Below are positions 1,142 to 64,000 of a stretch of DNA of 64,000 nt, one piece after another. The stretch is from Hydractinia symbiolongicarpus (taxonomy: Eukaryota; Cnidaria; Hydrozoa; Anthoathecata; Hydractiniidae), in NCBI RefSeq assembly GCF_029227915.1, contig NC_079887.1, positions 7,564,001-7,628,000 on the forward strand, given 5' to 3'. Position 1 is the stretch's first letter. Each line of letters opens with the position of its first letter. The translations under genes and the position numbers were made by a program. The notes below the pieces were generated by a model, which made no database searches, was not told the DNA's origin, and saw only the letters and a list, made by a program, of their open reading frames with translations.

Positions 1142-1179
1142 CTAGCGACATCTGTATTGTTTAGTTTTCTTGTTTTTAG

Positions 1180-4100
1180 AATTTCAAGTAGAAGAGAAGG
1201 TCGCGTCAGACAATCGATCAAATATACACAAAATAATCAACGTTGTCTTAATTGTCATCATTGTTATCGTTTTAATTGCTTTTTTTGCTTATGCAATTAC
1301 AATGGATAAAAAATGTGAATGCATGAAAGTAAGAAAACAGCAAGCATCTAAAAATGTCACATGTAAAGATAAAAGTATTACAATTGAACCACATGCCAAT
1401 GATGAAAATGACATTTTCCGTGAATTAAATTTGAAAGAAATCAACACGATTGTTGGTTACATAGAGCGCAACTTTGTGATACGACGACTAGAGGATGGAT
1501 ACAGTCATAAACTGGCTCAATTTATTAACACTGTAGAATTGTATTTGCCCAACAAAGACAAAGCATTACAGTATTTGGATAATAATGGACCAAAACCAAA
1601 AAGAGAAGCAATTGTGACTCTTCAGACAGCACACAATGTTACATACTATGTGGTTGGCCCACTACCGACACCAAAATATCACAATCTTGCTGAGTTTAAC
1701 GATAGACAAAATCCAATGAATTACTATGTAGATGAGTATTCAATCTTGCACAGTAAAACGATAAAAAAGCTTTTTCAGGAAAATGTTAACAAGACATGGC
1801 CGCTCTTCAAAGCAACGTTCGAAATCTTCGAAAAATATAACAAAGCGAAGGAAGCTTTTGACGCAGGATTGACATATTATCTTGGTGCTGGGGCGGAACA
1901 GAGAGCTGGTGAATTTTATGTTGATATAGTTCTTCTATTGCCTATGCCGTCCTATATAAATATGTTCGATACCATCTCATTTCAATTTAACCTTACAAGC
2001 AAAGATGAAAATGAATGGCGCTTGCTTCAGGTTGGTGTATGTTTACCTGACTTACTTTTCCTTTAGCGGCAGCGTAGCGAAGGCCGATATTTGAGGTATA
2101 CTAATGAAGTTTTTTCTGTTAGAATTGAAAGAATATATATAAATCCATAAAATGCAAACTATGTCGGCGGAAGAAGACTAAGTATACAAAAAGCGAGTAG
2201 AATATCGTTATTAAACATACTTTTTAAACATTAAGTTATTAGTAATAAAATTTGAAAAGGAATACCAACAGAATCAGCAATGAAACAAGAGCTCGTTTTT
2301 ATCAATATTTTCCGCACTAATTTTTGCGTGTACTAGTTTTTGAGCCAGCAAATGGTTGGTTAGTGCACGAAGATTTATAAAGAAATTTTGATTTGACTTT
2401 TGATTTACTTTTCTCATACATTATATAATGTACTTAATCTTCGTGAGAATTAAGTTATTGAGTTTTTTCTGAAATGTTTTAATTGTCACCGTCGCCATTC
2501 GCAAAAAATATGGTCTCGCCAATTTTTTATAATCTTGTAATTCGCGAAATTAAATTCTCGCGCATTTCAATTTTTCAAAACCTTGTTTTTAGTAAAATTT
2601 GGTGATAAAAGTTGACATGTTTATATTTCTTAAAAATAGAAATAATTTTACAATGCGACCATATTGAAAACACAACAAAATGACTAGTAAAAAAAGAATA
2701 CAGACAAATTTGCAAGCTAATGTAGGAAAATACACTAATAAAAAAATGACTTCTGCATGGTTTTTAGTTCTTTTGTTCAGACGTCTGTCTTCTTTGATCC
2801 GAAGTCTAAATCTAAATTCTCGCGAAAATTAATTCTACTTAATTCCTTTAGGTAACTTCCGCAACTTTTATAAAAGAAAAAGAATAGCATCCGTAATTTT
2901 TTCTGAAACTTTAAATTGCGTATTTTATATACCAAACAATCATTGTCCCCATCTCATTATAACTAACAGGAAACACGCCAATCAAACGCTGGCACTATTT
3001 AACAGATTGTGTCTTCTATTTTAGATATTTTACAACCAAAAATATTATGCAAGCGTTGAAGACATTATGCGCAAATACAAAAGCGGAGAACTTAAGGTAG
3101 AAAAAGTAAAACGTCTTTCTGATAATACTTTGAAACTTGCACATCAAACAAGACGAGGTACCCAATCAAATTATTTTCCATCCATTGAACCACTGACTTT
3201 CTATCCAAATGGACCGAGGTTTTCAATTGAAGGGCGGAAGATAACATACCTGGATTGGCAGTTCAATTACATGGTTCAAGCATCAACAGGTCCAGCAATT
3301 TTCAACGTTAGATATAAAAATAAACGAATTGCATTTGAAATTAGCTTGCAGGAAGCTTCTTCATTGTATTCAACAGCCTCACCTTCTATTGGGACTGGAA
3401 ATATTTTGGACAGTTACTATTCTCTTGGGAAATCAAACTCGTTAATAAAAGGAGTTGACTGCCCTTCTCACGCCACCTACATAGATATGTCTTTTTATAT
3501 GTATTACATTGGCAAAGTTGTAACAGTGAAAGACGCAGCTTGTGTGTTTGAAAACAACGCCAACATTCCACTTCGAAGACATCACCATGGTACAGATGAT
3601 TTCGAATATGGAGGTCTAGCAGATGCATATTTAGTCGTTCGATTTTTCAGTAACATGTTGAATTATGATTTTATTCACGACTATATATTTCATCAAAATG
3701 GCGTCGTTGAAGCGCGAACGACAACGACTGGTTACTTGCTGTTAAGTCAACTTTATGAGAAGCAGAAGAATAAATATGGATACGAAGTTGTTGATGGCTT
3801 CCTAGGTGGGGTTCATGACCACATGATGTTATACAAAGTTGATTTGGATATTCTAGGGACAAAGAACAGTTTTAAAACGTTAGATATGACTCTTGAGAAA
3901 ACACAGACGATATATGATTATCAACCCACTGTAAAGAAATTCATTAAAGAAAATAAAATACAAACAGAAAAAGAAGCTGCCATTCGCTATAATTTTGATC
4001 ATCCGAAATATTACATTGTTTACAACGAGAATGAGAAGAACAGATATGGAAATCATCGTGGGTATCGAATTTACTCACCGAATAAAATAAAGCAAGTTTA

Positions 4101-4527
4101 TCTGGATGAGCATAGAGCAACAAAACATACCGAATGGTCAAAATACCAGATATCAGTGTCGCAGTTTAAAGAAACCGAAAGATATGGAAGTTGTATGTTT
4201 AATTTTGTGCCTCAAACACTGACACCTCGATGTTCCTTTGATACACGTATTCATGACAACGAGAGTATTGTAAACGAAGATTTAGTTGCGTGGATTCCAA
4301 TTGGTGGATTGCACATTCCATGCGCGGAAGATTACCCAACAACGCCTACCATAGGAAACCGATTCACAATTTTCATTAAACCGTTTAATTATTTTGACGA
4401 AGACCCAAGTTTTGCGTCTGCAAATTCAGTGTATATTGAACACAAGAACGGAACATCTAAAATTGATACGTATGGTACTCCTAACGAAGCAACTTGTCCA
4501 ATATCATCTTCACGTCAAGTTAATTAG
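1180..4527 (+). CDS. Membrane-anchored copper amine oxidase (AOC family), 5' exon missing
   Basis: This enzyme family oxidatively deaminates primary amines using copper and a topaquinone made from a tyrosine. Two exons are visible: 1180-2030 (acceptor AG 1178-1179, donor GT 2031-2032) and 3025-4527 (acceptor TTTTAG), joined in phase 0, giving about 784 codons against about 763 residues in vertebrate AOC3. The first exon begins mid-codon, so a short N-terminal exon is missing from this view. A hydrophobic segment at about residues 20-42 looks like a type II membrane anchor. The N2/N3 region follows, with motif YYVVGPLP. The catalytic core has the base Asp (codon 3409-3411), NYD with the topaquinone Tyr (codon 3664-3666), the copper pair HDH (3814-3822) and the third copper His in GLHIP (4312-4314). 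The Thr usually three residues before the NY motif is Asn here. Orthology to a particular AOC paralogue cannot be decided. Confidence 0.93.
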
Positions 4528-11537: not shown

Positions 11538-12806
11538 CTATGTCAATGTTATTTTTCTTTGCTTGAAACATGTGTGTTTTTGAAATTCCTTTCTGGTAAT
11601 GAAAATAACAAATGGATTTATTAATGATAATATCGTGGTACCCAGTGTACTATACAAGTAAGCATAATTCATTATCTGCTCATTATAACCCAACTTTGCC
11701 ATAACTCGGATAACTAGAAATGGCGACCAAAATATGAAAAGTAGAATGATCATAGATAAAGTTGAAATATAAATTCGATATTTAAATTTAAAATGAGACA
11801 ATGAACTTTTTAAATCTTTTTCTTTACGTTTTGATTTAACTCTTTTAAAAGATCTTCGCAAAATATTTCCACCTGTCTTGATTTTTTTAGCGTTGATAAT
11901 ATCATATTCCTCTTGAACAGAAGGTGCTACTTTAAAACTTGATACGCCGGTACTCACCCTCTCCATTATGTTACGTGACTCATTTTGCGAATCGACTTGA
12001 ATATGAATTGGATGTACCTTCCTGACTCGGTTATTTTGGACACCAGTGAACGATCTTGTCCAAACCGGACCCCCTGTTGCAGAGTATTTCATAATGCCTG
12101 AGAAAGAACTACTTTGTTGGTCACGCGTCAAAGCTGCGCTAATTTTTTTATATTGATTTTTAGCTACTAAAAACACAATTATATTGCACAGTGTGATTGC
12201 CAACAATGGAAGTACGACATCAACAGCAATGATATAGCTTGAATAAACAGAGTTCATATTGTTAGTTCGAAAGACACACACTAATCCTTGAACATTATCG
12301 TTTTCAATGTATCCCTTCATGATCGTAGCAGGCAACATCGTTAGAATAACTTGTATAAGAAGGCACAGGTTTAAAATACATCCTTTTTCGCTTGTGATAT
12401 ATTTACAATACAAATACGGTTTTGTTATCGCTAAGCAACGGTCCAAGCTTAACGCTGCCAACGCAGATACAGTTAGCATTCCAGCCGAATAAGTAACAGT
12501 TAAAAAGCCTTTGCATAGCATGCCACTTTGCAAAACATCCGAATTAGGTATAACATTCAAACTGAATATAAAAAATGGGGCTGAAAAAAAAATGGGACAT
12601 GTTAGAAAATCTGTAAATGCTAATGTCACTATATACTGATTTAAAGTCAGCTGATGCAATTGTTTATTTTGAAGAATAATTATCAAGATCATAAGGTTTG
12701 CTGGCACACCAAATGCAGCGATAATACTGTACGCGATAGTTAATAATACTCGATGAATATGTGGTATGAGAACAACGTTATTTACAATCTGTGTTATATT
12801 TGACAT
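11538..12806 (-). CDS. Rhodopsin-like (class A) G-protein-coupled receptor, single exon
   Basis: The 422-residue protein has seven hydrophobic segments with class A landmarks: GVPANL in TM1, LAFTDF in TM2, a Cys before TM3 (MLCKG), DRC in place of DRY at the end of TM3, a Cys in extracellular loop 2 (GLVCVF), FWSPF in TM6 and NPFVIF in TM7 (an NPxxY variant). Intracellular loop 3 is long, roughly 120 residues, and rich in Lys, Arg and Ser. The start is the ATG at 12804-12806; the open frame extends eight codons upstream without an ATG. An NIT sequon near the N terminus suggests an extracellular glycosylated end. It should sit in the plasma membrane and couple to G proteins. The ligand is unknown; there is no opsin-type retinal Lys in TM7. 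Confidence 0.88.
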   Translation of the reverse strand: MSNITQIVNNVVLIPHIHRVLLTIAYSIIAAFGVPANLMILIIILQNKQLHQLTLNQYIVTLAFTDFLTCPIFFSAPFFIFSLNVIPNSDVLQSGMLCKGFLTVTYSAGMLTVSALAALSLDRCLAITKPYLYCKYITSEKGCILNLCLLIQVILTMLPATIMKGYIENDNVQGLVCVFRTNNMNSVYSSYIIAVDVVLPLLAITLCNIIVFLVAKNQYKKISAALTRDQQSSSFSGIMKYSATGGPVWTRSFTGVQNNRVRKVHPIHIQVDSQNESRNIMERVSTGVSSFKVAPSVQEEYDIINAKKIKTGGNILRRSFKRVKSKRKEKDLKSSLSHFKFKYRIYISTLSMIILLFIFWSPFLVIRVMAKLGYNEQIMNYAYLYSTLGTTILSLINPFVIFITRKEFQKHTCFKQRKITLT

Positions 12807-13624
12807 TTCTTCTTCTTTTTTAATGAACAAGAATTGAAGACTTGTACAAATTGATAATCTTTTAACTGGTTAAGGATTACAAGGACAATCTTGTGAAAAT
12901 TAAAATTATGATTTTAGATATAATTTGCTCCTATTTCTTTGAAGTCTGTATCTTGTTCTACAAAAATCATCATAAATGGTTAGAAGGCAGGTGAAGGTGT
13001 TTTCATCACCTAACTGATTATGGTTTCTTACTTTATATACAATGAAATATTTGGCTGCTAAGATTTTAATATGCATAATATTATCTTTGTGATCGTTTGT
13101 CAAATTAAAATAATTTACATCTAAGGGTCTCTATCGCAAAGAAATTAAAAATATTGCCTCTTGATCAGAATTTTGGTACAAATCAAGAAGAACAGTAAAA
13201 AATAGAAAATCAATAATCAAATCTTGAATTTTTACGGGAGAGCGTAACGTATCCTGTTTTAATTACAGCTGCGACTCCTCCTCCTACTACTACTACTCCG
13301 CGGTTTTCGACAGCCGGTCGGGCGCACTTATGCGGGCTTTGAAACCATTAGTAGCTAAAGTTTGTGCGGCTTTGAAATCTCACGAAATCTTGGAAATCCT
13401 TGCTGATTTTTTAATTATTCTATGCAACGTATTTTCTCTCAATTCATTTAAAGATTGTGAGAATCTTATTCTGTTTTTATTTTGCTTAGATATTGACATA
13501 TCTGGGAACAGTATTTGTCTTAGACAAGTACTTTAAAGCTCAGATAAGGACTATCTGGGGACAGTGCTTTTCTCAGGACGGTTAAGTACTTTACAAAATA
13601 AAACAAGCTCAAACAAGTAAAATC
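12807..13624. other. Intergenic region upstream of the GPCR
   Basis: No gene is seen. It contains a short CTCCTACTACTACTACT run at about 13277-13293. It likely includes the GPCR promoter and 5' UTR on the minus strand, though no clear TATA or initiator element could be assigned. Confidence 0.3.
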
Positions 13625-16600
13625 ATGTCAACAGAAACAAATATTTTGAAGTCTGTACAAGGCTCCTTTATTCAAGGAAATGAGAGATTTGGATTAACAA
13701 CTGGTAGACAGTGTACATGTAATGCGTTATCTTCACATTGATAAAAAGTCAAGGTACGTGGAATTATAGAGATATGGATTTATTCTTGAAAATGGTGGCG
13801 CCATTTATAAAAGTTAGAGTATTGGTGGATATGTAGCAATGGATCAATTGCCACAACAATTTTCATTTAAAAACTACTCGCAATTTAAAGCCATTTTTCA
13901 AAATTATAGTGTTTTTCCAGTTTATTTGAATAACATGCATTTATATTTTTTGTTAGACGATACTTCTATAGATACTTCAGGTTTTTTATTTACATTAAGA
14001 GGTTTGACAATGTCAGTTACTTGGACAAGTAGACATTACTTTTTGTTTGATTCTCACAGTCGTGACGTTAATCGGAAAATTTTTCCTGGTGGATTTTCAG
14101 TTTTACTTAAATTTTCTCTTCGGAAATCTTTAGAAAGACATATTCTGGAAACTTATTTTAAGGACACAATTGAGGAATATGTATGTTTAGCAGTTCAATA
14201 TGTGAAAATTGAAATGCAAAATGCTCCTAATTGTGATGCTAAATCTACTTACATGCTTGAAGCTGAAAATCAAAGGAAAAATTCTGAAATTGAAAAAGAA
14301 AAATGTCGTAAACGTAAACAGTCTGAAACTGAAAAAAAAGTAGAAAACGTCAACAGACAGAAACTCAAAAAAAAAAATGTAGAAAACGTAAACAGTCTAA
14401 AACTGAAAAAAGAAAAAAAGTAGAAAACACAAACAGACTGAAACTGAAAAAGAAAAAGTAGAAAACGTAAACAGACTGAAACTGAAAAAGAAAAAAGTAG
14501 AAAACGTAAACAGACTGAAACTGAAAAAAAAGCAGAAAACGTCAACAGACTGAAACTCAAAAAGAAAAAGTAGAAACCATAAACAGACTGAAACTGAAAA
14601 AAAAGTAGAAAACGTCAACAGACTGAAACTGAAAAAGAAAAAAGTAGAAAAAGTCAACAGACTGAAACTGAAAAAGAAAAAAGTAGAAAACGTAAACAGT
14701 CTAAAACTGAAAAAAGAAAAAAAGTAGAAAACACAAACAGACTGAAACTGAAAAAGAAAAAGTAGAAAACGTCAACAGACTGAAACTGAAAAAGAAAAAA
14801 GTAGAAAACGTAAACAGACTGAAACTGAAAAAAAAGCAGAAAACGTCAACAGACTGAAACTCAAAAAGAAAAAGTAGAAACCATAAACAGACTGAAACTG
14901 AAAAAGAAAAAAGTAGAAAACGTCAACAGACTGAAACTCAAAAAGAAAAAGTAGAAACCATAAACAGACTGAAACTGAAAAAGAAAAAAGTAGAAAACGT
15001 AAACAGACTGAAACTCAAAAAGAAAAAAGTAGAAAACGTAAACAGTCTGAAACTGAAACTGAAAAAAAAGTAGAAAACGTCAACAGACTGAAACTCAAAA
15101 AAAAAAAAAGTAGAAAACACAAACAGACTGAAACTGAAAAAGAAAAAAGTAGAAAACGTCAACAGACTGAAACTGAAAAAGAAAAAAGTAGAAAACGTAA
15201 ACAGTCTAAAACTGAAAAAAGAAAAAAAGTAGAAAACACAAACAGACTGAAACTGAAAAAGAAAAAGTAGAAAACGTCAACAGACTGAAACTGAAAAAGA
15301 AAAAAGTAGAAAACGTCAACAGACTGAAACTGAAAAAGAAAAAAGTAGAAAACGTAAACAGTCTAAAACTGAAAAAAGAAAAAAAGTAGAAAACACAAAC
15401 AGACTGAAACTGAAAAAGAAAAAGTAGAAAACGTCAACAGACTGAAACTGAAAAAAAAGTAGAAAACGTCAACAGACTGAAACTGAAAAAGAAAAAAGTA
15501 GAAAACGTAAACAGTCTAAAACTGAAAAAAGAAAAAAAGTAGAAAACACAAACAGACTGAAACTGAAAAAGAAAAAGTAGAAAACGTCAACAGACTGAAA
15601 CTCAAAAAAAAATGTAGAAAACGTAAACAGTCTAAAACTGAAAAAAGAAAAAAAGTAGAAAACACAAACAGACTGAAACTGAAAAAGAAAAAAGTAGAAA
15701 ACGTAAACAGACAGAAACTCAAAAAAAAATGTAGAAAACGTAAACAGTCTAAAACTGAAAAAAGAAAAAAAGTAGAAAACACAAACAGACTGAAACTGAA
15801 AAAGAAAAAAGTAGAAAACGTAAACAGACTGAAACTGAAAAAGAAAAAAGTAGAAAACGTAAACAGACTGAAATTAGAAATAAAAAATCTCTAGTACTTA
15901 AGATATCCAAAAATTTGAATTCTCCAAGAGTATTTGTGTTTAAAAAAGCTATCACTGAGGGACCGTACTATATTTGTATTGTCTGTCATAGATGTCTTTA
16001 CAAAAAATCTGTAAAAAAATTATGACAACACATTACAACGTTTCCTGTGATTTTTTTCATGAAATTGAAAGTTTTGATGGGTATAAATATATTTGTATTA
16101 CTTGTGATGAGCATCTCGAAAAAAATGAAATCCTCCACAGATCCTCCACAAGCTGTAACCAAAAAATTAATATTAGATCCAATCCCAAGTGTAGTAGAAA
16201 CATTGAATCGTTTAGAAAAAACCTTGATCTCTAAAAGAATTTTGTTAAAAAAGATAACAGTCATGCCTAAACGCTAACAACCAAAAATAAGAGGTGCTGT
16301 GTGTAATATTCCAGTTCAAGCAGATGCTATTTTTAATGTTTTACCTAGACCTACTGAAGATGATGGTGTTGTGCTAGTCAAGTTAAAAAGAAAAATAGAG
16401 TTTAAAGGACATGATTATTTTGAAAGTGTTTGCCCAAGTTTCGTTGAAATTGCATCTAAAGCAACATAATCCATTTTACTCTGATATTCTTATTGATTTA
16501 GATAATATTAATCGAGATCTTCTTTGTTTATCTGATATTGAAAGTATCATAGAAAAAGATGAATTTAAAATAGCTGTGAAGAATGAAAACGATGAACATT

Positions 16601-17276
16601 AAGGTAGCAATCCCTTAGATTTGGAACGAACGAATAGTGATGAAATGTGTGTCATTCTAAGTATTTATAATGATTCACAAAATGTGCTAGATGTCGCTCC
16701 AGGTCAAAATAAAACCCCTGAATCTTTTTTCAATGACCAATTTTGCGAAGAACAAGCTTTCCCTTTTCTCTTACCAAAAGGTAGATTTGGTTATCAAGTA
16801 ACAAAAGAAGTTTTACTATCCCCTGTCAAATATTTCAATCAACGACTGCTTAATTATACTCAGAGGTTTTCCTCAAATGGTGATTATGTCTTTTTCGCTC
16901 ATTATATTATGCAACAACTTAATTTATCTAATCAGATTAAAATAGCTACAACTAAAGTAAAGGGTAGTTTGAATGCTGGTCAGCTAAATAACAACTTAAA
17001 GGAAACTATTAGATCAATTGTATGTGAAGATAAAGATTACTCTTTTATGAAAGCAGTGAAAGGTACTCCTGCATACTGGAAAATTTTTTTACATGATGTT
17101 CTTGCGATGGTAACACAACTAGGACTACCAACATTTTTTCTAACATTGTCTTCTGCTGATTTGCAATGGAAAGAATTCATTTTGATTATAGCTAGATTGA
17201 ACGTAGTAAACACATTTAAGCGCGTATTACTTAAAAAAAAATTAAAAATTAAATTCGATAAGAGTGTTAACTTCAA
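13625..17276 (+). pseudogene. Decayed Helitron polyprotein (C76-like protease, repeat linker, DUF6570-like, Helitron_like_N)
   Basis: Pieces of one large Helitron-type polyprotein lie in order on the plus strand. First (13625-14265) is a cysteine-protease-like module with GRQCTCNAL and the DSHSRD box, resembling peptidase C76-like domains carried by some Helitrons. A charged linker follows. Next (about 15890-16330) is a zinc-knuckle module matching DUF6570, with GPYYICIVCHRCLY, ICITC and TLISKRI. Last (about 16340-17270) is the start of the Helitron helicase-like N domain, with GTPAYWK and QLGLPTFFLTLSSADLQW. The HUH nuclease and Pif1 helicase parts are absent. Stops at 13739, near 13768 and 13810, at 14421 and between later frames show it is dead. 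Family assignment rests on remembered motifs. Confidence 0.82.
14280..15890 (+). repeat. 13-codon (39-bp) tandem repeat expanding the Helitron linker
   Basis: The consensus unit encodes SRKRKQTETEKEK (AGT AGA AAA CGT AAA CAG ACT GAA ...). About 40 units are present, many shortened by one or a few bases, so the reading frame drifts and stops appear. Neighbouring blocks of several units recur as larger repeats, for example the run passing through GTAAACAGTCTAAAACTG. The first units still lie in frame after the protease module, so the array grew inside coding sequence. Confidence 0.9.
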
Positions 17277-17280
17277 ATAG

Positions 17281-21057: not shown

Positions 21058-24000
21058 TTACTGTTGAAAAATTTCTTCCTTAGTAGAAAACATGGCATCG
21101 CTGCAGGCTATATCGGAGTTTTGATCAGATGACATTGAACATGAATCATTTATCGTTTCCATAATCAATTTCACGACGTCTTCGTTTATGATGATATCTT
21201 GTTTGACCATAGTTATCCCTGCAAAGAATCTAGGGGCTGGTGAGGGTGGGACAACCGATGGTGGTGGACTTGTTTTTGGATCAAGCTTATTATCTGCTTC
21301 TAATTTGTGCTGTGTCTCTTGTTGGCCCTTTTCTTCTCCGTCGTCCGGAAGAATTGACACGTCGCTATTAGACGTATACCCTGATGTATCGTCTCCACTT
21401 TCTGACGGAGGTGAAGATGGAGGGACAGGAAAATTTATTTCTGATATATCAAATGACGTCGATTGATTTAATAACGTCTTGATTGGGGGCGGGCTGGTAA
21501 CTAGCGGTGGTGTTGAAATAGGTTCTGAAGTAACGACGGGTGGACTTGTTGGAATAGGAGGAGGTGTGCTAGCACGGACTGTTGTGGCTGGTGGTGGCGG
21601 CGGTGGAACTCGTGGAGGCTGCCTTAACCTTTTGGAGGACTGATTTTTTTTTCGAGGACTAACAAAAATCTGCGGTTGCGACTTGGAGCGAATGAGTGGT
21701 GGTAATTCAACAGGTGGTTGTGGAGGAGCAGATGTAGGTTTATTCGGTATGGATTGTCTTCTTTTGTGGAGTGATCTTGATGAGTTGACTCTTGCAGGAG
21801 GTGGTCTTGGTGGTGGCACTTTCTTTAAATGACGTGGTCTGTTTCTTGCTCGTTCTTCTTGGCTTAATTCTACTGCATCTTTTTTATATTTTTGCTCATG
21901 AAAGTCCCAAACTTCAGTTTGAATTTGCTTTGATGTATCAATATCTGGGGTCATCTCATCAGGTATTATCTTCCTGGTAAGTTGCTCTCCATTATGTACT
22001 ACACTATTTAAATGACACGACTCTGTACTTCTTTTTTTGTTGTTAGCATCAGAAGTCGACACAGTGTTTTCCTGCGTTTTTACTTTTACTTTCTCTTGTT
22101 GTTGTTGTTTGGAAAGGCTTTTTGAGCTTTCCATGTTGTGCTTTTTAAGAGAACTGTGTGGACTGAATGGCTCTTTCTTCTCCGTTTTACTTTCCGTCTC
22201 CAATCCAAGAATTTGAGGTTGAGCGGATAATCGTCGCTTTCCTTTAGCATTTGGATTCGCAGAAACAACTGACTTCTTCTGAATTTTTTCTGCTTCAAGT
22301 AAAGCCTTTGGCTTCATAAAAGTCATCACGGTTATTTCTTCAAGCTGTCTTCTTAGGTTTTTAAATATGTCCATGATTTCTGCATTGCATTTATTGGTCA
22401 TGACAGCGTTGGTAAAGGCAATCCAGTCATCTAACATTTGACTGTTTTCCTGAGCTTTCTTGATTGCTTTCAGTCCTTCGTCATATTTTTTGTTTACAGC
22501 TTTAATCAATAAGTTCTTCTTCGTATTAAGCAACTCATGTATTTTATTAAATGTTTCTTCCAGTAAAATTATTGAATTCTCTTTTGCTACTTTTATGTTC
22601 TGCATAATACCTTCTGCTTCTTTTATTGATTTATTAACCGCCTTCTTTTTCTTTGTTGCACTTTGAAGAAGCAACTTTAGGTTTTCTTTATTACCAGAGG
22701 TAATTTCTTCAAGCAACTCGAAATTATGTCCACTATGTTTTTTGCTGACAGTGCAATCATGACAAATCGTATAGGAGCAACTGTTACAATAAAACTTTAA
22801 CGTCTCATTATGTTCGGGGCATTGCTTAATTCTTCCTTGAGACATATCATCTCTTGATATCTCATCTAGTGGTTGGATTGCATGAGTTTTAAATTTTAAA
22901 CTCCTTTTATGATAGCCTGTGCACACGTCACATAAACGTTCATAACAATCACAACAGAAATTAACTGCTTCATCTTGGTCACATTCATTACAAGTTAGAC
23001 CACCCTCTGATCTTAACGATATGACTTCCATAGCTCCAATAATGTTCTTGACTATTAGGTTCATTGTGAGGCTTTCTGTTCCATTTGCAGTCTAAAGAAG
23101 AAGAATATAAAAATAACCTTTGCTTCACAGTAGTAGAAATGTTTGAGAAAAATCTATCATCAATTTTTACTTCAAATAACATTGCAATTTTAGTACTGAA
23201 TTAACCTGCTATTAAAAAACAGATAAATTTAGAAAAGGTAATATTTGTATTTATATATATCATTGCATTTTGCTGCGCTATTGGGCCAGTTTTTGATCGG
23301 TTTCCCTTACAGTCCAAAGAATTTTTAAATTTATACAGTTGTAATTAGTATATTTCAGAAGATTCCTAACTATCCGTAAAAAATGAATCCGTTTAACTGC
23401 TATTTGAACAAAATGAATTCGGACGTACGTTTTATGGTGTAAATTATACACTAATGGAAGCAAATTTTTCCTCGCAAGGATGATATCATTATATTTTAAA
23501 ACAAAGATGACATCTAAAAATGTAATGTCATGATCCATAGTTCCGTACCATTGACAGGAGTTTAATGATTATTTTTAAGGACAACATTGTTATAAAATAT
23601 TTACAAAATTCACTAAACAAGTAAACTTGTTCAATAAACAAGTAAACTTGTTTAGTGGAGAAATTTTGTATTCCTAGGCCAACACAATCGCAGTGTATAC
23701 CCGACATACGTTATTAAATTTTGAAAGATGGAGAGTTTTTTAATGGTTCGACGTTGATTTTTTATTTTTAAAAAAACACATATTACAGAAAGGCAGTTCT
23801 CTCCTTAATATAATGGATACTTATCAGTCAAACCGTACAGAAAATAAATTATTATGTAAAATTGAAGCAGGCTAAAATTAGATATTATGTAGCAGAGAAA
23901 CGCAAGGTTAGGATACAGATGTCAATTTTCTCATACCTTAGTGATGTGTCTGCAAACTGGACATGTGATTTCTCCTGTATCATATGCAATCAATGGTTTA

Positions 24001-50263: not shown

Positions 50264-52650
50264 ATGATATGTGCAATGTACCTGTCCCCTGTCTTAATCA
50301 TATACTGTTTTTATTTGCAGCAAGCAAGAGGTAAGATAATATTTCGCTTACCTACTATAATTTATTGTTGATTTGTATCTTTTAAATCACTACAGTAACT
50401 GAACATATTTTCCACTTCCTTGAAAATTCTAAAAAACAATGCAAGACGATAAACAAATAACGCTTTTTCCATCTTCTTTTTCAATTTAGCAAAATGTATA
50501 AAACGTCCTGGAGAAAGATACTCGCCTCACTTTGAGGGACTACCAATGGGTGAAATTGACTGTATGAAAAAATGCGAAAATAACACAAAATGCTATAGAG
50601 CGACATGGATCGGTCGCAGTTGTTATTTGCATGGGGATAATTTTTTTAAAGGAAAAGACGTCAATTCTGTTGGATACATATGTAAAGGTATCATTATTAT
50701 TGTGTTCTTACTAACAATGTGTAGTTTTAGAAACATACAAGTTAAAGATTGACATAACGGAACAACGACAATGAAGTGGATAATTTTTTCTAAAAAAAAC
50801 CTGCAGATTCAATTTTTCAACAAATTTGTTTGAATTTTAAAAAAATTGACCGTTGTCAAAGTCCTCATAAATAAAAACGAAACACCAAAACGAAACACCA
50901 AATATTTCGTCATTCAAATAATATAAGTTAACATTAACGTTCGTGTAGCTAGGTCCAATTCTATTCATATAGCTACATGAATGGTAATATATAGTTCCGT
51001 CACGTGCTTTTGTGACTCATCTAACGCCAAACTGACTAAAAAAGATATTGCTCAGCGAAAACCTGAAATGTCAACTAACTTCCACATAATTACGCGTATT
51101 TAATGTTTCTCAATTACAAGTTTGTATTTTCTTAATTTAGCTGATTGTGTAAGGAATGGACAGAAGTTTACAAGCCAAAAGTATGAATTTACATCAAACT
51201 GTCAAGAAAAATGTAGGTGCACACTTGTAGGAAAACCTGATTGTAAAAATTCTTGTCGGACAACTAGCATAAAATGTGTCAGTCCAGAAGTCAAAGTACA
51301 GTATGCTATGCCGCTAGTGGGAAGCTGCTTTTGTGGAAAGCTTTGCGTTGTACCTGGTAGGTAAATATATGTAGTATTCGTTTTTCTTAACTTAATGTTA
51401 GAGGTCTTTAATACGACTGGGGTTTCAATCGTCCAAACTTCAAATTTATTTAAACTTAACACTTATAGTACGTCACAAAAGAAAAAAGAAGTTAACAATA
51501 AATTTTTGCTTATGTCAGCACTTTTACTCTGACGACATTTAGAGCTTGAAATTTGATCAAAATACCACTGTCTACTTAAAGTTCAATTACTTTAGTTCTA
51601 AAGCGAATTTTTGCATTCTGTTTGATGTTTCAAACCAAGCCAAAGTAAAGTTATATAAAATATATTCCGGTTTTTACACAGTTCGCCTAAAAAATTCCAG
51701 ACCGAATAGGGTTAAAATAGTAATTTATGATATATTCGACATTGAATGTCTTACTTTTATTATATTTAAACTGGTTCTTATATTTTCGTGTAGATTAAAA
51801 TTCGCGCAATTATATCTTACGTACAACAAAGTCAAGTTGTTTACGCACTTAAATAATAGCATTAAATAATAAGAAACACGTGAAGTCAAAGAAAACTGGG
51901 GTCTTGGCTTGATATAAGAAAGAAAATATAGAGTCTCTGGATCATTTAAAATGACTTTATAAAGAGTAATATTTAAAATCGCTTATATCCTTCTTTAGGT
52001 AACTTTGGCATCAAAGTAAAGCAAGGTGAAACGATAGCGATAGGTTGCTCATTCAGTACGTTGTATTGGACATTTAATGGAAAAACATTGAAGAATATTG
52101 CCAAATACAAATTTAAGCGCAATTCAATCGAAGTTCGGAATGTCCAAAAAACCGATGTTGGCTCATACACATGTGGAGATAAAAAGTATTATAATATTCA
52201 CCTGACAGAAGGTAATGTATTATTTCGGTAAGGTTTATTCATTACCTGTTCTTAAAGGGCGTTAGAAGAAGAACGAATTTAAGAAACAGGTTTTTAGGGA
52301 ATATTTCAAGAATTTTTTTATTGTTAACCTACTTTATTATTCTAGATACTTGCAGCAGTACGAACACAATATACATTGTGGTATGTGGAGTTGCCAGCTT
52401 CTTGGTTGTGGTTTTACTAATAATTCTCTTCATATATAAATATAGAAACGTAGAACGTTCGAAAGTAAATAACAACACCAAGGCGAGAGTGGAGATTCCT
52501 GCACCCAATATAGACGATGCAAAATACGTGGAACTTGGCGAACATATTCGAGGCAGTTATACCGGTTTGAATGCAAGTAATGTAGCAACTTATGAAAATT
52601 CGCATTACGGTTATGAAGTTTCTCCAGCATCAGTAAATGAAACTAAATAA
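50264..52650 (+). CDS. Type I receptor: PAN/Apple - VWC - Ig - TM - ITAM tail
   Basis: Five exons joined in phase 1 (50264-50330, 50490-50687, 51141-51356, 51999-52211, 52346-52650) encode 332 residues. Exon 1 is a signal peptide (ATG 50264). Exon 2 is a PAN/Apple-like module (six Cys; CMKKC, CYRATW). Exon 3 is a VWC-like module with ten Cys (CRC, CFCGKLC). Exon 4 is a short Ig domain (Cys, Trp, then DVGSYTC). Exon 5 has a transmembrane helix (about 240-262) and a 70-residue tail. The tail contains D289-x-x-Y292-V-E-L295, seven residues, then Y303-T-G-L306, an exact ITAM pattern, plus two further tyrosines in YENS and YEVS. In other animals, phosphorylated ITAMs recruit tandem-SH2 kinases such as Syk. 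This suggests an activating surface receptor; ligand and partners are unknown. AATAAA lies at 53073-53078. Hydrozoan Alr allorecognition proteins also combine Ig-like domains with ITAM/ITIM-like tails, but this ectodomain differs. Confidence 0.85.
51412..51711 (-). mobile_element. piggyBac-type MITE, copy 3, inside receptor intron 3
   Basis: TTAA lies on both sides (51408-51411 and 51712-51715). In reverse orientation it begins CCCTATTCGGTCTGG and shares GCAAAAATTCGCT, AAATTTCAAGCT and TGACGTACTATAAGTG with copies 1 and 2. It lacks the first part of their body and is 300 bp. The opposite end has decayed to TACGACTGGGG. Confidence 0.85.
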
Positions 52651-53760: not shown

Positions 53761-54295
53761 CCAACGCAACATTTGATGCAACATTTGATACAACATTTGA
53801 TGCAACATTTGATGCAACATTTGATACAACATTTGATACAACATTGAATACAACATTTGATACAACATTTGATACAACATTTAATACAACATTTGATACA
53901 ACATTTGATACAACATTTGATACAACATTTGATACAACATTTAATACAACATTTGATACAACATTTGATACAACATTTGATACAACATTTGATACAACAT
54001 TTGATACAACATTTAATACAACATTTGATACAACATTTAATACAACATTTGATCCAACATTTGATACAACATTTGATACAACATTTGATACAACATTTGA
54101 TACAACATTTGATGCAACATTTGATACAACATTTAATACAACATTTGATGCAACATTTGATACAACATTTGATACAACATTTGATACAACATTTGATACA
54201 ACATTTGATGCAACATTTGATGCAACATTTGATGCAACATTTAATACAACATTTGATACAACATTTAATACAACATTTGATACAACATTTGATAT
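53761..54295. repeat. 12-bp minisatellite, about 44 units
   Basis: The unit is CAACATTTGATA with common variants GATG and AATA, once GATC. Because 12 is divisible by three, all frames stay open (TFDT, HLIQ and, reversed, VSNV repeats). These are not genes. The array runs directly into a Tigger transposase remnant. Confidence 0.95.
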
Positions 54296-57584: not shown

Positions 57585-58445
57585 TCATTTCTCAACATCT
57601 TCGACAAGTTTCAAATCTTGAGAATCATTCTCAAATTGACTTGATATCAAGGTAGAAGCTTCAGCAACAACTTGTCGCAGTTCATGAGAATCTAAATCAT
57701 TTATCAGCAGTAGCACTGCTTTTAAAGTATTTGATTCGTTTTCATTGGAAACAGTTGCTAGGTTACCGGTCGATGGATTTGCATCGTCAGCATCCTGATT
57801 AGCATCGTCGTCATCCTGATTAGCATCAATCGAACAACTCACTCCTAAACTTAAATCGAGTTCTGTCGCGTTATGCTCAATGCATGGAATCTCATCATTC
57901 TCTGAAATAGATGGTTTCTCTTCATCATTGGAATTTAACAAGCTGATTTGCCGCAGCACATCGTCTGGTGATAACGTGTGATTTAAATCAAGTTCATCGA
58001 AAGTTGGTAGTGTTAGATCGTCCTCAAAGAGTTCACCTTTGTCCATAGCTAACCGTAGTTCATCTTCAGTCACCTCAATATTATCTATTTTCGATAAAGA
58101 CGGCAAGTTTCTCAAGATTGTCTCTCTGTAATTTAATGATGTCTTTACGCAGGGATTGTCTTCAAGCCAGATAGCTTTTAACCGTGTTAAATTTTTAAGA
58201 TATGTAATTTCTTTCATAGTTTGAATTTGATTTTTACGTAAATACAGTTCCTTTAGTTTTGGGCAAAATGATAAATCTTTTAACGTTAAAACGTTGTTCA
58301 CGCTTAGGTTTAAGACTTCTAGATTTACCATTTGTCGTACGATAGATATATCTGAAATATTGCTCCCCCAGCAATTCAAGTTTTTAACGTGAGCTAAACA
58401 TGACGCATGAGATCTCCCAAGTGACTGCTTCTCTGTGAGAGACAT
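57585..58445 (-). CDS. cfap410: CFAP410 (C21orf2) orthologue, ciliary leucine-rich-repeat protein
   Basis: The 286-residue single-exon protein follows the human CFAP410 layout (256 residues). An N-terminal leucine-rich-repeat region (about residues 20-95) has LNCWGS, LEVLNLSVN, LKELYLRKNQI and IWLEDNPC. An LRR cap with LRNLPSLSKIDN and VTEDEL follows. A variable acidic linker comes next, then a C-terminal helical segment with LKAVLLLINDLDSHEL (about 250-268), matching the family's oligomerising end. CFAP410 acts at basal bodies and cilia and works with NEK1 in vertebrates. The linker contains an Asp/Asn/Ala-rich repeat (DANQ units). The start ATG is at 58443-58445. The lack of introns is notable, but the frame is intact and conserved. 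Confidence 0.92.
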   Translation of the reverse strand: MSLTEKQSLGRSHASCLAHVKNLNCWGSNISDISIVRQMVNLEVLNLSVNNVLTLKDLSFCPKLKELYLRKNQIQTMKEITYLKNLTRLKAIWLEDNPCVKTSLNYRETILRNLPSLSKIDNIEVTEDELRLAMDKGELFEDDLTLPTFDELDLNHTLSPDDVLRQISLLNSNDEEKPSISENDEIPCIEHNATELDLSLGVSCSIDANQDDDDANQDADDANPSTGNLATVSNENESNTLKAVLLLINDLDSHELRQVVAEASTLISSQFENDSQDLKLVEDVEK

Positions 58446-59238
58446 TCTATAATTTAAAAAAAAAACATGAAAAATTAATGCACGACTTTTTAGCAGGCAT
58501 TATATTTTCGTGCGAAACAGTTTCTTTATTAACACAATATAATAAACACCATTATACTTATTAAATCCTTAATGGAAATGTGCATTTATCTTTTTTAAAC
58601 AATTCGTAAAAATATATGTTCCACCAAAGTTGAAGTTGTTGAAAATAATTAGTACAACTTTTAATGTATTTTACATCTCAGTTACTTTTTGTAATTATTT
58701 CCAGAAACAGTTTTTCTTGTGACCACTTTACTTAAAATATTTGAAAGACAAAATTAAAAAAAAGTTTCTGCATTCTACACAGTACATGACCTAAGAAGTC
58801 TTTTAATTCACCTTTATAATATCTATGCATTGATAAAGTTTGAATGTACATCCCTTAACAGGTCTAAAATTACTGATGACAGAAAATGTCACAATTTGCT
58901 TTTACTTAAATATGACATCATAATTTATGCCGCATAAATAAATATAAAGTTCTTTAAATGTGAATATCTTAGAACAAAAAGTGCTTTTTAGGAAATTTAA
59001 GAAGATTTGTTAACTAACTTTTTAAGCTCTAAAGTTTAACATCATTTTATACCTCGGTTTCCCTTTTAAATTATTGATTTATAAAACTTTTATTATATAT
59101 ATTAAAGTTGCTGTAACTTTGTTTCCTGTTTTTTTAAAAAGGAACAGTTCATATCAGTAAGACTACTTGTTAACAGTCAACAACCTTATTTTCATCTTCT
59201 TTCCTAATATATGTTAGTTTTTTTTTCAAAATTCCCAG
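58446..59238. other. Intergenic, CFAP410 upstream region
   Basis: AT-rich; contains the CFAP410 promoter and 5' UTR. No motif is clear and no first half of a THAP domain was found. Confidence 0.3.
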
Positions 59239-60016: not shown

Positions 60017-61265
60017 ATAAACATATATACTAGGAGATGAATACATTATTGATTAAAAATTATGCCCTGGTAAACCCCGGAAACTGCCAAAGTTAGCAGA
60101 GCTCGAAGTATGACCGCCACCGTGGACAATACAAAACACACAACTTGACACAACAACACAGACCACACTACAAAACAAGACAGACAAGCGAAAAAATGTG
60201 AAAAATATTGCAACTGCAAATCCCAAGAACAAAAGTGGTGTGAAAGTGATTGTGAACAATAGTAATTTTAGGTATATATAAATTTAACATAATTAGACAA
60301 GAAGGTATGCTTTATTAGGGATTTAAGTCTATGAAATTTCAGGTAAGGCATTTTGATAACTAGATCATGATAGGACACTTTGATGCCTAATGGATTTCAA
60401 ACCAAATGCAAAAGTACGAACAGCACGCGAATTTATAAGGCCTAGGCTGTTTGCACGAGTATTATGAGAGTGAGAGAAGTCAATTGAAAAGGTACCAATC
60501 AGAGGAACAGGTAGATTGTTGTGAAATAAATTATAAATAAATAATACATTTTGCAGTTTCACAGTATCTGTGAATTTATAATATTGGTTTGCATTTGTTC
60601 TATGGTTGGTAAAATTCGTAAGATGTAAAGCACAATTTTGAAGGACAGTGATTCGGTTCACTTGTAAACTTATGGACTGACCCCAGACTTGGGAGCAATA
60701 ATTTAGATTTGAGTGGAAAAGAGCATTATAAACTGACAGGAGAACATCCATCGGCACATAATGTCTTTTTTTTGCAATGATTCCATTAACCTTTTTCAGT
60801 TTGGTTGCAATTGAATTAATCTGGGACTTCCATCCTAAGTTAGAATCAAGCAGTACGCCAAAATATTTTATAGTTCCACTAGGAAAAACCTTTTGACCAC
60901 CAAAAGAAAGCTTAACTTCACAGTTAATGGGTTTAGAGGAATGTCTAAAGAGTATATATTCCGTTTTACTAGCATTAAGAGATATTTTGTTAGCACTGAG
61001 CCAGTGCCAGAGGAATCTAAGATAAAGAGTGACTTTTTTGACGAGGGATTTCAATGAGGGATTAAAATGCAGCAAGTTTGTATCGTCAGCAAAGTGATGA
61101 ACTAGGGAAAATTTTATTGCTTCGTGTAAGTCATTAATATAGAGCAAGAAAAGAAGTGGGCCAAGTACAGATCCTTGAGGAACACCATGTTTCATAAATA
61201 CTTTATTTGAGAAAATACCTTTAATGGAGACAAACGAGTGTGTTTCCCAGCATAGGTTGCTGGTT
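59981..61265 (-). pseudogene. LINE A, 3' fragment: reverse transcriptase C-terminal half
   Basis: The open frame (60365-61195, extended in frame to about 61250) encodes the second half of a non-LTR reverse transcriptase: GVPQGSVLGPLLFLLYINDL, the catalytic FADDT, then LSANKISLNASKTE and a WGQ-type C-terminus. It resembles jockey/CR1-type LINEs. The first half of the RT is missing. It is in the same orientation as the PHD-endonuclease fragment at 62398-63275, and together they appear to be one element with its middle lost. Confidence 0.82.
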
Positions 61266-62385
61266 TGTGATATTATCTAAGAGTGTTAAAGAAGTTAAGG
61301 GAAAGTACTGGCCCCGTCGTAAAGTCTGGAAGCAGAAGGAAGAGATTGTAGCAAGACAATTTAGTGCAAAAGTTCAGCAGTTAGCCCACAATGGTCAATG
61401 TTGAAAGTACTTGGATTACTTTGAAGAATTGTCTTCTAGCAGCTTCTGATGATACCTGTGGGTGGACGAAAGGACCAGCTAGACATAGACAGACCTGGTG
61501 GTGGAATAATAAGGTTGACCAGTGTATAAAGGAAAAGAGGAAACTTTGGAAAGAGTGGAAGTCAGGTGGTAGTAAAAATATTTACTTAGAAGCTAAGCGT
61601 CGTGCTCGTACAGCAGTGTATAAGGCAAAATCAGAAGCAGAGAGAAACAGATTTGCAGATGTGTCAAGAAGAAAGACCAGCGCAATGAGGTATTCAAGAT
61701 AGCAAAGCAAATGAAGAAGACTAATCAAGATGTTGTAGGAGAGAAGTGTATACGTAATGATGAAGGTGTTTTAGCTAGCACAGAGGAGGAGAAAAGGGTA
61801 GCTTGGAAGAATTATTATCCGAGGTTGCTTAACACTGAGTTTGATTGGGATGAGGATAATTTGTCTGATGATGATGTTGTAGAAGGGCCAGCTATGCAGA
61901 TCAAGACAGAATGGGAAGTGGAGGCTATTAGGAAATTGAACATTGGCAAGAGCTATTCCGAGTAAGTGGGAGTCGAGTGTAATGGTGAATTGTTTCAAGG
62001 GCAAGGGTGATGCATTAGAAAGAGGTAACTATAGAGGTTTGAAGTTGGTTGATCAAGTAATGAAAGTTATTGAAAGAGTGATTGATAAGTAACTTAGAGA
62101 AAGAATTGATATAGATAAGATGCAATTTGGTTTTGTTCCAGGGTGTGGCACTACAGATGCAATATTTTTACTCAGACAGCTTCAGGAAATGTATGTAGAT
62201 TTAGAAAGGGCTTTTGATAGAGTGTCAAGTTTTTTGGTGGGCTATGAGAAAATTAGGTGTGGATGAGTGGCTATTTACGATGGTACAGTCTATGTACAGC
62301 AATGCTAGAAGTCGTGTCAGGATTAGCGATTCACTTAGGGATGAATTTAGTGTAAATGTGGGTGTACATCAGGGTTCTGTATGAG
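61266..62385 (+). pseudogene. LINE B fragment, opposite orientation, central part only
   Basis: Frames at about 61266-61702, 61711-61965 and onward give typical non-LTR retrotransposon text upstream of and into the RT: TWWWNNKVDQCIKEKRKLW, then GNYRGLKL, QFGFVPGCGTTDAIF and DLERAFDRV. It ends at HQGSV. Frameshifts and stops separate the parts. It lacks the YxDD-containing half and any 3' tail, so it is not a simple fresh insertion. Confidence 0.78.
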
Positions 62386-62397
62386 TATTAGTATTTA

Positions 62398-63275
62398 CTT
62401 GCATAATATTGATGTTGAAGTCACCCATCAGTGTCAGTTTTTTTTTTTTTTTTTTCAAGCGAGATTTTTTCCAGGAGAGGCATTAAAATATTATTGTTGA
62501 CGATCTCAACAGGCATTTTAGGACGTCTGTAGATACAACCTACAACAACATTTTTCGGTTTTTGAGAATGACTTCAATAAATTTAGATTCTACTTCGAGT
62601 GACCTATAGGCAAGCTATCTAGATCAACACGAGTGGTATAATTAAGACTGTTGGATACATAAAGTAACGCTACCCCCTTTTCTCCATCACATGGAGTGTG
62701 CTCAATTGTATAATTTGAAAGTGAAACATTACTTGGGATGATTTTATCTTGGAATTTTGTTTCAGTTATACCAATGATATCGAAAGCAAATTCAAGGTTT
62801 TGGAGGAGAGCTTTAAGCTCATCAAAATATACACACTAAGAGATGCTATATTCATGTGAAAAAAAGAAAGAGCTTTGTGTTCTCATGCTCTTATGTTGTC
62901 CAACTTTAATGATGTAAATTCGCCGTTGACACCCTCAACACCCATAGTTTCCTGTACAGTCTCGTAAAAGTTATTGAGATCATTCAAGCGGGACAAAAAA
63001 GATTTTAGTTTAGTATTTTTTGCAAAACTGGAATTTGAGAAGTCAGGAGGAGAGGAAGTACTCATGTTAGTAGAGTCATCACAGAAAACATTTCTAAGGG
63101 ATTTTTGACAGGCCCAGTTAAATGGTGACTCTTGGAGCAGAATATATTCACTAGCTGTAATGCTGTTACATTTGGTATGAGACCATAATTTGCAGAGATC
63201 ACAAAATACTGCAGTATGGTTGTCATTTACTGATTTTCCACACACACTGCAAGGGAAAGGGATTGCAAGGCACAT
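62398..63275 (-). pseudogene. LINE A, 5' fragment: PHD-like finger and start of endonuclease
   Basis: The frame from 63275 encodes a PHD-like zinc finger (CSVCGKSV, FCDLCKLWSHTKC, WAC). After a stop at about 62883, other frames give endonuclease text (IGITETKF, HTPCDGEKGVALLY, GDFNIN). This order is that of jockey/CR1-type LINE ORFs. A 20-base T run at about 62437-62456 interrupts the endonuclease. The element is broken at about 62398. Confidence 0.75.
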
Positions 63276-64000
63276 TTTTCACACACAAACTAGACACCAA
63301 AATAAACAAAAACAAAATAATGTTAGCTAGACACAAAATAATGAATCTAGCTAAACTGTAAAAATTGTCAGGGGCGACTGGAAAAAATAAATGGAGCGTA
63401 AGTTATCAGCCAGAATGTTTTGGAGAGAAATTTACCTGTATTTGAGGAGCGTAGAACCAAGAAACCAGCGTTCTTAAGCAAATTAAAAAACAAGTTCTCC
63501 TTCACAATGCGAACGATAGCACAACTTAATCTGCCATCATGAACTTGTGAAAAGAAAATCATGAAGGTTTCGGCGCCAAAGTTTAAATCGGCTCATCAGT
63601 TATTAAAAAAAAGGAATGGGGGAAGTGTAGAAACTTATTTTAAAACGTGTATTCGCAAAACAGTCTTACGAAGTCCTGTTCATCAGTAATTTTGATAGGG
63701 TTATATCGTTTAGTTCAATACGGATCAGCACAGCAGAGCTTTTAAACCAAGTTTGCGAAATTTCGTCGTCTTTTTTTAGTCTGGGACCCATCCAGGCAAG
63801 TTTTTGAAAATATTGGCATAAAATTTAGATTCACGTATATCCCTTGTTTCAGTTTTTTTTCATTTTTAACAATTTCGTGACATCTTTTTCTGTTTGTAAA
63901 TCGAATGATCGTCTTTTTCGGGGAAGTTTTTGAGTTGAGGCTGTGGCAAGCTTCAATTTCATGTTCGTCTAGATGAACACCAATCTCTGCAAAAAGTAGC
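63276..64000. other. No recognised gene
   Basis: May include the 5' UTR of LINE A near 63276-63600. The rest is AT-rich with short random open frames. Confidence 0.3.

Follow-up and report, generated by a model that had tools for sequence, protein, structure and literature searches.

A candidate single-chain ITAM receptor from a PAN, VWC-like and Ig multigene family of Hydractinia symbiolongicarpus

The window analysed here is a 64,000-nucleotide stretch of the genome of the colonial marine hydroid Hydractinia symbiolongicarpus (contig 13, bases 7,564,001-7,628,000, of a 481 Mb assembly), and the gene in question is LOC130623443, called the window gene below. Its product is probably a type I, single-chain receptor with an activating function that belongs to a multigene family of Hydractinia and signals through the kinase Syk by means of an immunoreceptor tyrosine-based activation motif (ITAM) in its own tail. 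Direct observations are the gene model, the order of the modules, an uncharged transmembrane (TM) helix, the presence of the ITAM in most paralogues and a Syk-type gene in the same genome.

Gene model and domain organization of LOC130623443

Splicing of the window DNA joined five exons on the forward strand into a reading frame of 332 residues, with the stop included in exon 5 and with all four introns GT-AG and in phase 1. Exon 1 (50264..50330) contains the start codon and the signal peptide and ends in phase 1 at the donor GTAAGATA; the N-terminus of the protein is hydrophobic and is followed by ARA. Exon 2 (50490..50687) encodes a PAN/Apple-type domain with six cysteines, exon 3 (51141..51356) a VWC-like domain with ten cysteines, and exon 4 (51999..52211) an Ig domain with the pattern C..W..DxGxYxC and two cysteines. 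Exon 5 (52346..52650) supplies a short stalk, the uncharged TM helix, the cytoplasmic tail and the stop. A search of 5.8 billion proteins (354 candidates) with the spliced product returned a single record at E<=10, the uncharacterized protein LOC130623443 of H. symbiolongicarpus, which is placed on a 28.4 Mb contig and is 100% identical over 100%. Because the two proteins are identical, the NCBI annotation must have drawn the same exon joins, and wrong joins are thereby ruled out. The five phase-1 exons and the 332 residues proposed in an earlier note on this DNA were thus confirmed.

The most hydrophobic 19-residue segments lie within residues 240-261 and are free of charged residues, and a low-confidence structure prediction places a helix at residues 237-274. 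The cytoplasmic tail that follows the hydrophobic stretch has 69 residues according to the predicted membrane topology.

A Pfam scan showed that the Ig domain is the sole domain of the window protein over the cut-off (PF00047, 25.1 bits against 21.8); neither PAN nor VWC was listed at E<=10 when the whole protein was scanned. The PAN exon scanned alone gave PF00024 at E=0.00051 (20.3 bits against a cut-off of 21.4). Among the six PAN exons of the family described below, PAN_1 was matched in five (best E 0.00051) and PAN_4 likewise in five (best E 0.00015), and two whole family proteins matched PAN_4 at 16.0 and 16.3 bits against a cut-off of 27. A profile built from the six exons matched the heavy chain of coagulation factor XI at E 0.07. 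Taken together, exon 2 is likely to encode a PAN domain.

The canonical VWC pattern has ten cysteines with CxxCxC and CCxxC. The exon of the window gene has ten cysteines with CxxxCxC, a paralogue (L013/P0003) has CxxCxC, and the second motif reads CxC, not CC. PF00093 was weakly matched in two of seven family domains (best E=0.0016), the domain of the window gene itself being unmatched, and a profile of the VWC exons searched against solved structures gave two unrelated weak matches and no VWC. VWC-like appears a fair label for exon 3. The structure predicted from six alignment rows had a mean pLDDT (predicted local distance difference test) of 47, with blocks of 60-82 over most of the Ig domain, about 26-67 over PAN and below 30 over VWC; the model is too poor to settle the PAN and VWC labels. 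The order signal peptide, PAN, VWC, Ig, TM and tail given in the earlier note is therefore supported, with Ig over the Pfam cut-off and PAN and VWC-like on weaker matches.

The tail motif and its conservation in a paralogous family

An ITAM was defined strictly as [DE]xxYxx[LI]x6-8Yxx[LI] and, in a loose form, without the acid and with a spacing of x6-12. The tail of the window gene fits the strict form exactly, with the acid at -3 and a spacing of x7: codons 52516..52569 (residues 289-306) read D-A-K-Y-V-E-L, seven residues, Y-T-G-L. The consensus ITAM claimed earlier was thus found at the same codons. When each family tail was shuffled 20,000 times, the strict motif arose in a fraction of 0.00055 of the shuffled window-gene tails and the loose form in 0.01; over all family tails the strict fraction ranged from 0.00055 (window gene) to 0.00455 (P0002) and the loose one from 0.01 to 0.048. 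These shuffles and the recurrence of the motif in paralogues rule out a chance ITAM. A DNA pattern for the first box was uninformative, as its backward control gave more matches (2454 + 2508) than the pattern itself (1461 + 1360).

The genome was searched with the window protein and with one relative, and paralogues were found on chromosomes 13 and 14. Contig 13 corresponds to chromosome 13, since Piwi exons found on it at 16.507-16.509 Mb coincide with the published position of Piwi1 (chromosome 13, 16,493,941-16,509,130; PMC10411563). Contigs 14 and 2 are taken, from their numbering, to be chromosomes 14 and 2.

One paralogue is a decayed copy within the window, head to head with LOC130623443 (44131..45646, reverse strand), which retains remnants of the VWC, Ig and tail exons; a PAN exon was not found in it. 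Read by eye, its lesions are an in-frame TAA and a frame shift in VWC, a frame shift in Ig, and an acceptor before VWC that reads AC instead of AG. A second decayed copy, L009 (contig 13, 10.8582-10.8627 Mb), has stops in its PAN, VWC and Ig exons. L009 contains three PAN exon remnants, suggesting exon duplication. Four loci lie on contig 14. L010 (LOC130625749, P0006; 4.378-4.391 Mb) has a VWC exon that is frame-shifted in the present assembly, and for L011 (4.418 Mb) no PAN or first VWC exon was found upstream. L012 (LOC130625909, P0002; 4421085-4425810) is organized as PAN-VWC-Ig-VWC-Ig-TM-tail, and our splice model of it equals the NCBI protein. Its VWC-Ig pair is repeated, and its 214-residue tail holds 13 tyrosines and one strict ITAM. 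The fourth is L013 (LOC130625989, P0004; 4.617-4.620 Mb). Three distant relatives (L014, L015 and L020; contig 13, 12.968-12.990 Mb) have Ig and TM in one exon; VWC-like cysteine-rich open reading frames (ORFs) were seen by eye upstream of two of them.

A profile search yielded six proteins in all (P0001-P0006) among 5488 candidates. The order PAN-VWC-Ig-TM is complete in four of them (P0001, P0002, P0003 and P0005); the NCBI models of P0004 and P0006 omit the PAN exon that is present at their loci. A second profile search with six sequences listed five of the six known records and no further relative. Relatives in other cnidarians were not found by a search that requires shared five-residue words, so this absence is weak. 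P0003 (411 residues, longest contig 1,537 bases) is 88% identical to the L013 model, and P0005 (418 residues, longest contig 1,959 bases) is 89% identical to P0006; both bear the source label lgn, which we take to denote assembled public read sets. Because these contigs are too short for the introns at the matching loci (about 3.3 kb and about 13 kb), P0003 and P0005 most plausibly represent spliced transcripts of paralogues, or of their alleles or orthologues.

One strict ITAM is present in each of the six records, and five of the seven close-family genomic tail exons carry it (window gene, L010/P0006, L011, L012/P0002 and L013/P0004). Counted as independent lines they come to about four: L011 almost duplicates L012, P0003 lies close to L013, and P0005 lies close to L010. 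The boxes read DAKYVEL-x7-YTGL in the window gene, EAFYSEL-x8-YSEL in L011 and P0002, EAAYVEL-x8-YSKL in P0004, EAAYIEL-x8-YLKL in P0003 and EAAYSEL-x8-YLKL in P0005 and P0006. The two tails lacking the motif have the first leucine changed, and in both cases exons elsewhere in the copy are interrupted by stops or frame shifts; the decayed copy in the window reads YMEA and then YFVL, and L009 reads YMEF and then YTSL.

Alignment of the six records showed that, past N274, the invariant positions are A290, Y292, E294, L295, Y303, L306, N307, Y321, E322, V323, P325 and K332. All six also share a further conserved box, YEV[SN]P, downstream of the ITAM. For the TM-plus-tail region, comparison of the window gene with L012 showed saturation at synonymous sites and a nonsynonymous divergence (dN) of 0.71, and the comparison with L013 gave a synonymous divergence (dS) of 2.49 and a dN of 0.54. 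With synonymous sites at or near saturation, the identity of the ITAM is not accounted for by recent common ancestry; the family tails are, by this measure, old. Between L011 and L012 the ITAM shows 0/57 differing sites, against 48 of about 558 in the remaining tail. The results suggest that the ITAM has been kept by selection in the relatives, with the distant relatives (0/3) apart.

Proposed coupling to Syk and competing explanations

Genome scans gave 60 SH2 matches and 165 tyrosine-kinase matches, the kinase results below being those among the matches listed. Two SH2 exons and kinase exons stand together on contig 2 at 25.112-25.121 Mb, in a gene that is partly assembled. The second SH2 exon matched SYK first (2e-37) and then ZAP-70, and the joined kinase pieces matched SYK at 5e-85, ZAP-70 at 8e-83 and TYK2 at 4e-67, the one row ranked above SYK being an entry titled EGFR, matched in two stretches. 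Between the SH2 exons, no ankyrin match was seen in 23 of the 25 ORFs of at least 38 residues (20 without any Pfam match at E<=0.001 and three without ankyrin at E<=0.1; the other two were unscanned). Because of this lack of ankyrin matches, the contig 2 gene looks like Syk, not Shark/HTK16.

Under the favoured explanation, the PAN, VWC-like and Ig modules would lie outside the cell and bind some ligand, either protein or glycan. The ligand would cluster the receptor, and a Src-type kinase would phosphorylate both tail tyrosines. The tandem SH2 domains of Syk would then engage the doubly phosphorylated ITAM and start downstream signalling. As the chain has its own ITAM and an uncharged TM helix, no adaptor would be needed, as in the single-chain ITAM receptors of vertebrates. 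Further along the tail, the YEVxP box may serve as a docking site for another SH2 protein. The sign of the signal is presumed to be activating.

Several observations weigh against this explanation. No transcript of the window gene was seen, the two transcript-like records in the profile search both being of paralogues. YxxL boxes also serve as endocytic sorting signals. The close group on chromosome 13 has the strict ITAM in one of three members, the window gene. The link between decay and motif loss is drawn from two copies, both of which have open tail exons, and the line between intact and decayed copies is not clean, as L010, with its VWC frame shift, and L011, whose 5' part was not found, keep the motif. 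The strict ITAM is absent from all three distant relatives (two scanned and one read by eye), of which one has YAEI-x11-YDEI in its tail, one a lone YAEI and one neither of these. In the L011 and L012 tails dN is about equal to dS outside the ITAM, and their identical ITAM could also have come from gene conversion. The earlier note had named the failure of orthologues to keep the YxxL pair as a ground for rejecting its claim; among the paralogues the outcome was mostly favourable to it, the chromosome 13 group, with its two decayed copies, being the exception.

The strongest competitor, which we consider unlikely, is that the tail holds paired YxxPhi sorting signals, so that the protein would work as a receptor for adhesion or uptake and recruit the clathrin adaptor AP-2 through its tail, without Syk signalling. 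YVEL and YTGL fit YxxPhi, as does the YMEF of the decayed L009, and modules of the PAN, VWC and Ig types are frequent in adhesion proteins. However, YxxPhi needs neither an acid at -3, nor a fixed spacing, nor a pair, whereas the acid, the pair and a spacing of 7-8 occur in all six records.

Less probable again is a phagocytic receptor like Draper or CED-1 that works through the ankyrin-containing kinase Shark/HTK16 instead of Syk. One hydrozoan does have such a kinase, as Hydra HTK16 is described with ankyrin repeats between its SH2 domains (PMC9486129). However, EMI, Nimrod and EGF families were unlisted for the window protein at E<=10, in a scan whose HMMER filters drop most weak matches.

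The least supported rival is a role in allorecognition beside Alr1 and Alr2, which would be compatible with ITAM signalling. It is suggested by the same animal, the Ig domain, the ITAM and a comparison of P0003 with the L013 model, in which PAN diverges most among the extracellular modules (57/73 identical) and VWC least (71/74). It is nevertheless very improbable, as the window gene is on chromosome 13 whereas chromosome 3 carries the allorecognition complex, and as P0005 and L010/P0006 do not repeat this pattern (PAN 65/72; C-terminal half of VWC 30/37). Membership of the complex by location is ruled out, and the allorecognition role proposed in the earlier note is left unsupported.

Other features of the window and relation to known receptors

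A tandem array of 44 copies of a 12-base unit (CAACATTTGATA) lies at 53767-54294, 1.1 kb downstream of LOC130623443, with long open frames crossing it in both strands. At 14284-15887 lies a 39-base repeat in about 41 copies, and downstream of it is an ORF whose N-terminal domain is Helitron-like (16603-17277). On the forward strand, two ORFs at 1146-4524 encode parts of copper amine oxidase (N2 and enzyme domains). On the reverse strand are a rhodopsin-family G-protein-coupled receptor in a single open frame of 443 residues (11541-12869), a B-box zinc finger protein in a single open frame of 677 residues (21061-23091), a leucine-rich repeat ORF (57588-58499), a reverse transcriptase fragment (60368-61276) and a PHD finger ORF (62886-63278).

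The closest known system is the Hydractinia Alr family. Its complex is placed on chromosome 3, and none of the three Alr homologues described outside it is the window gene (PMC11876637). Alr genes are described as clustered, many being likely pseudogenes (PMC11067881), and ITAM and immunoreceptor tyrosine-based inhibition motif (ITIM) sequences, together with their pathway, are reported for Hydractinia allorecognition candidates (PMC12065747), so an ITAM in Hydractinia is not new by itself. The likeness thus extends to Ig-superfamily surface receptors of the same animal, with ITAM or ITIM on candidates and clustered genes that include likely pseudogenes. The family described here differs in its location on chromosome 13 and contig 14 and in its PAN and VWC-like modules, a separation made without direct sequence comparison. 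Work by Huene in 2022 is said to have found that Alr Ig domains are without the usual diagnostic motifs; the Ig domain of the window gene is unlike them in having an ordinary Ig motif that exceeds the PF00047 cut-off.

The vertebrate receptors FcgammaRIIA and CEACAM3 combine extracellular modules, one uncharged TM helix and an ITAM in the same chain, as the window protein does, but of these only the window protein has PAN and VWC-like modules, and there is no evidence that the whole receptors share common descent. Draper, CED-1 and MEGF10 are single-chain phagocytic receptors with paired tyrosine boxes; the box pair is shared with the window protein, whereas their ectodomains consist of EMI and EGF-like repeats in place of PAN-VWC-Ig. 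The fuhc-linked receptors of Botryllus are another invertebrate set for which ITIM and hemi-ITAM (hemITAM) motifs are reported (PMC12065747), and they differ from the window gene in animal, ectodomains and locus. A full-text search of open-licence papers found neither a cnidarian PAN-VWC-Ig ectodomain combined with an ITAM nor any naming of the four LOC numbers of the family. The earlier note's statement that it knew of no described receptor with this ectodomain order and an ITAM was not contradicted by the open-licence papers covered.

A vertebrate-like Syk/Zap70 has been reported in Cnidaria by a 2018 study, which also took the shared distribution of Syk/Zap70 and the CARD-CC/Bcl10 complex to mean that ITAM receptors acting upstream of Syk have an ancient origin (PMC5978004). 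The family provides annotated cnidarian genes with a recurring ITAM in a laboratory animal that also has a Syk-type gene, which makes the idea of ancient ITAM receptors directly testable, and it broadens ITAM use in Hydractinia to genes outside the allorecognition complex. A further step, which we put forward tentatively and regard as somewhat unlikely, is that the PAN-VWC-Ig-ITAM family of chromosomes 13 and 14, with its fast turnover, forms a second immune-type receptor set outside that complex, upstream of the cnidarian Syk. If so, Hydractinia would possess Syk-coupled activating receptors with germline-encoded variety in an animal without lymphocytes.
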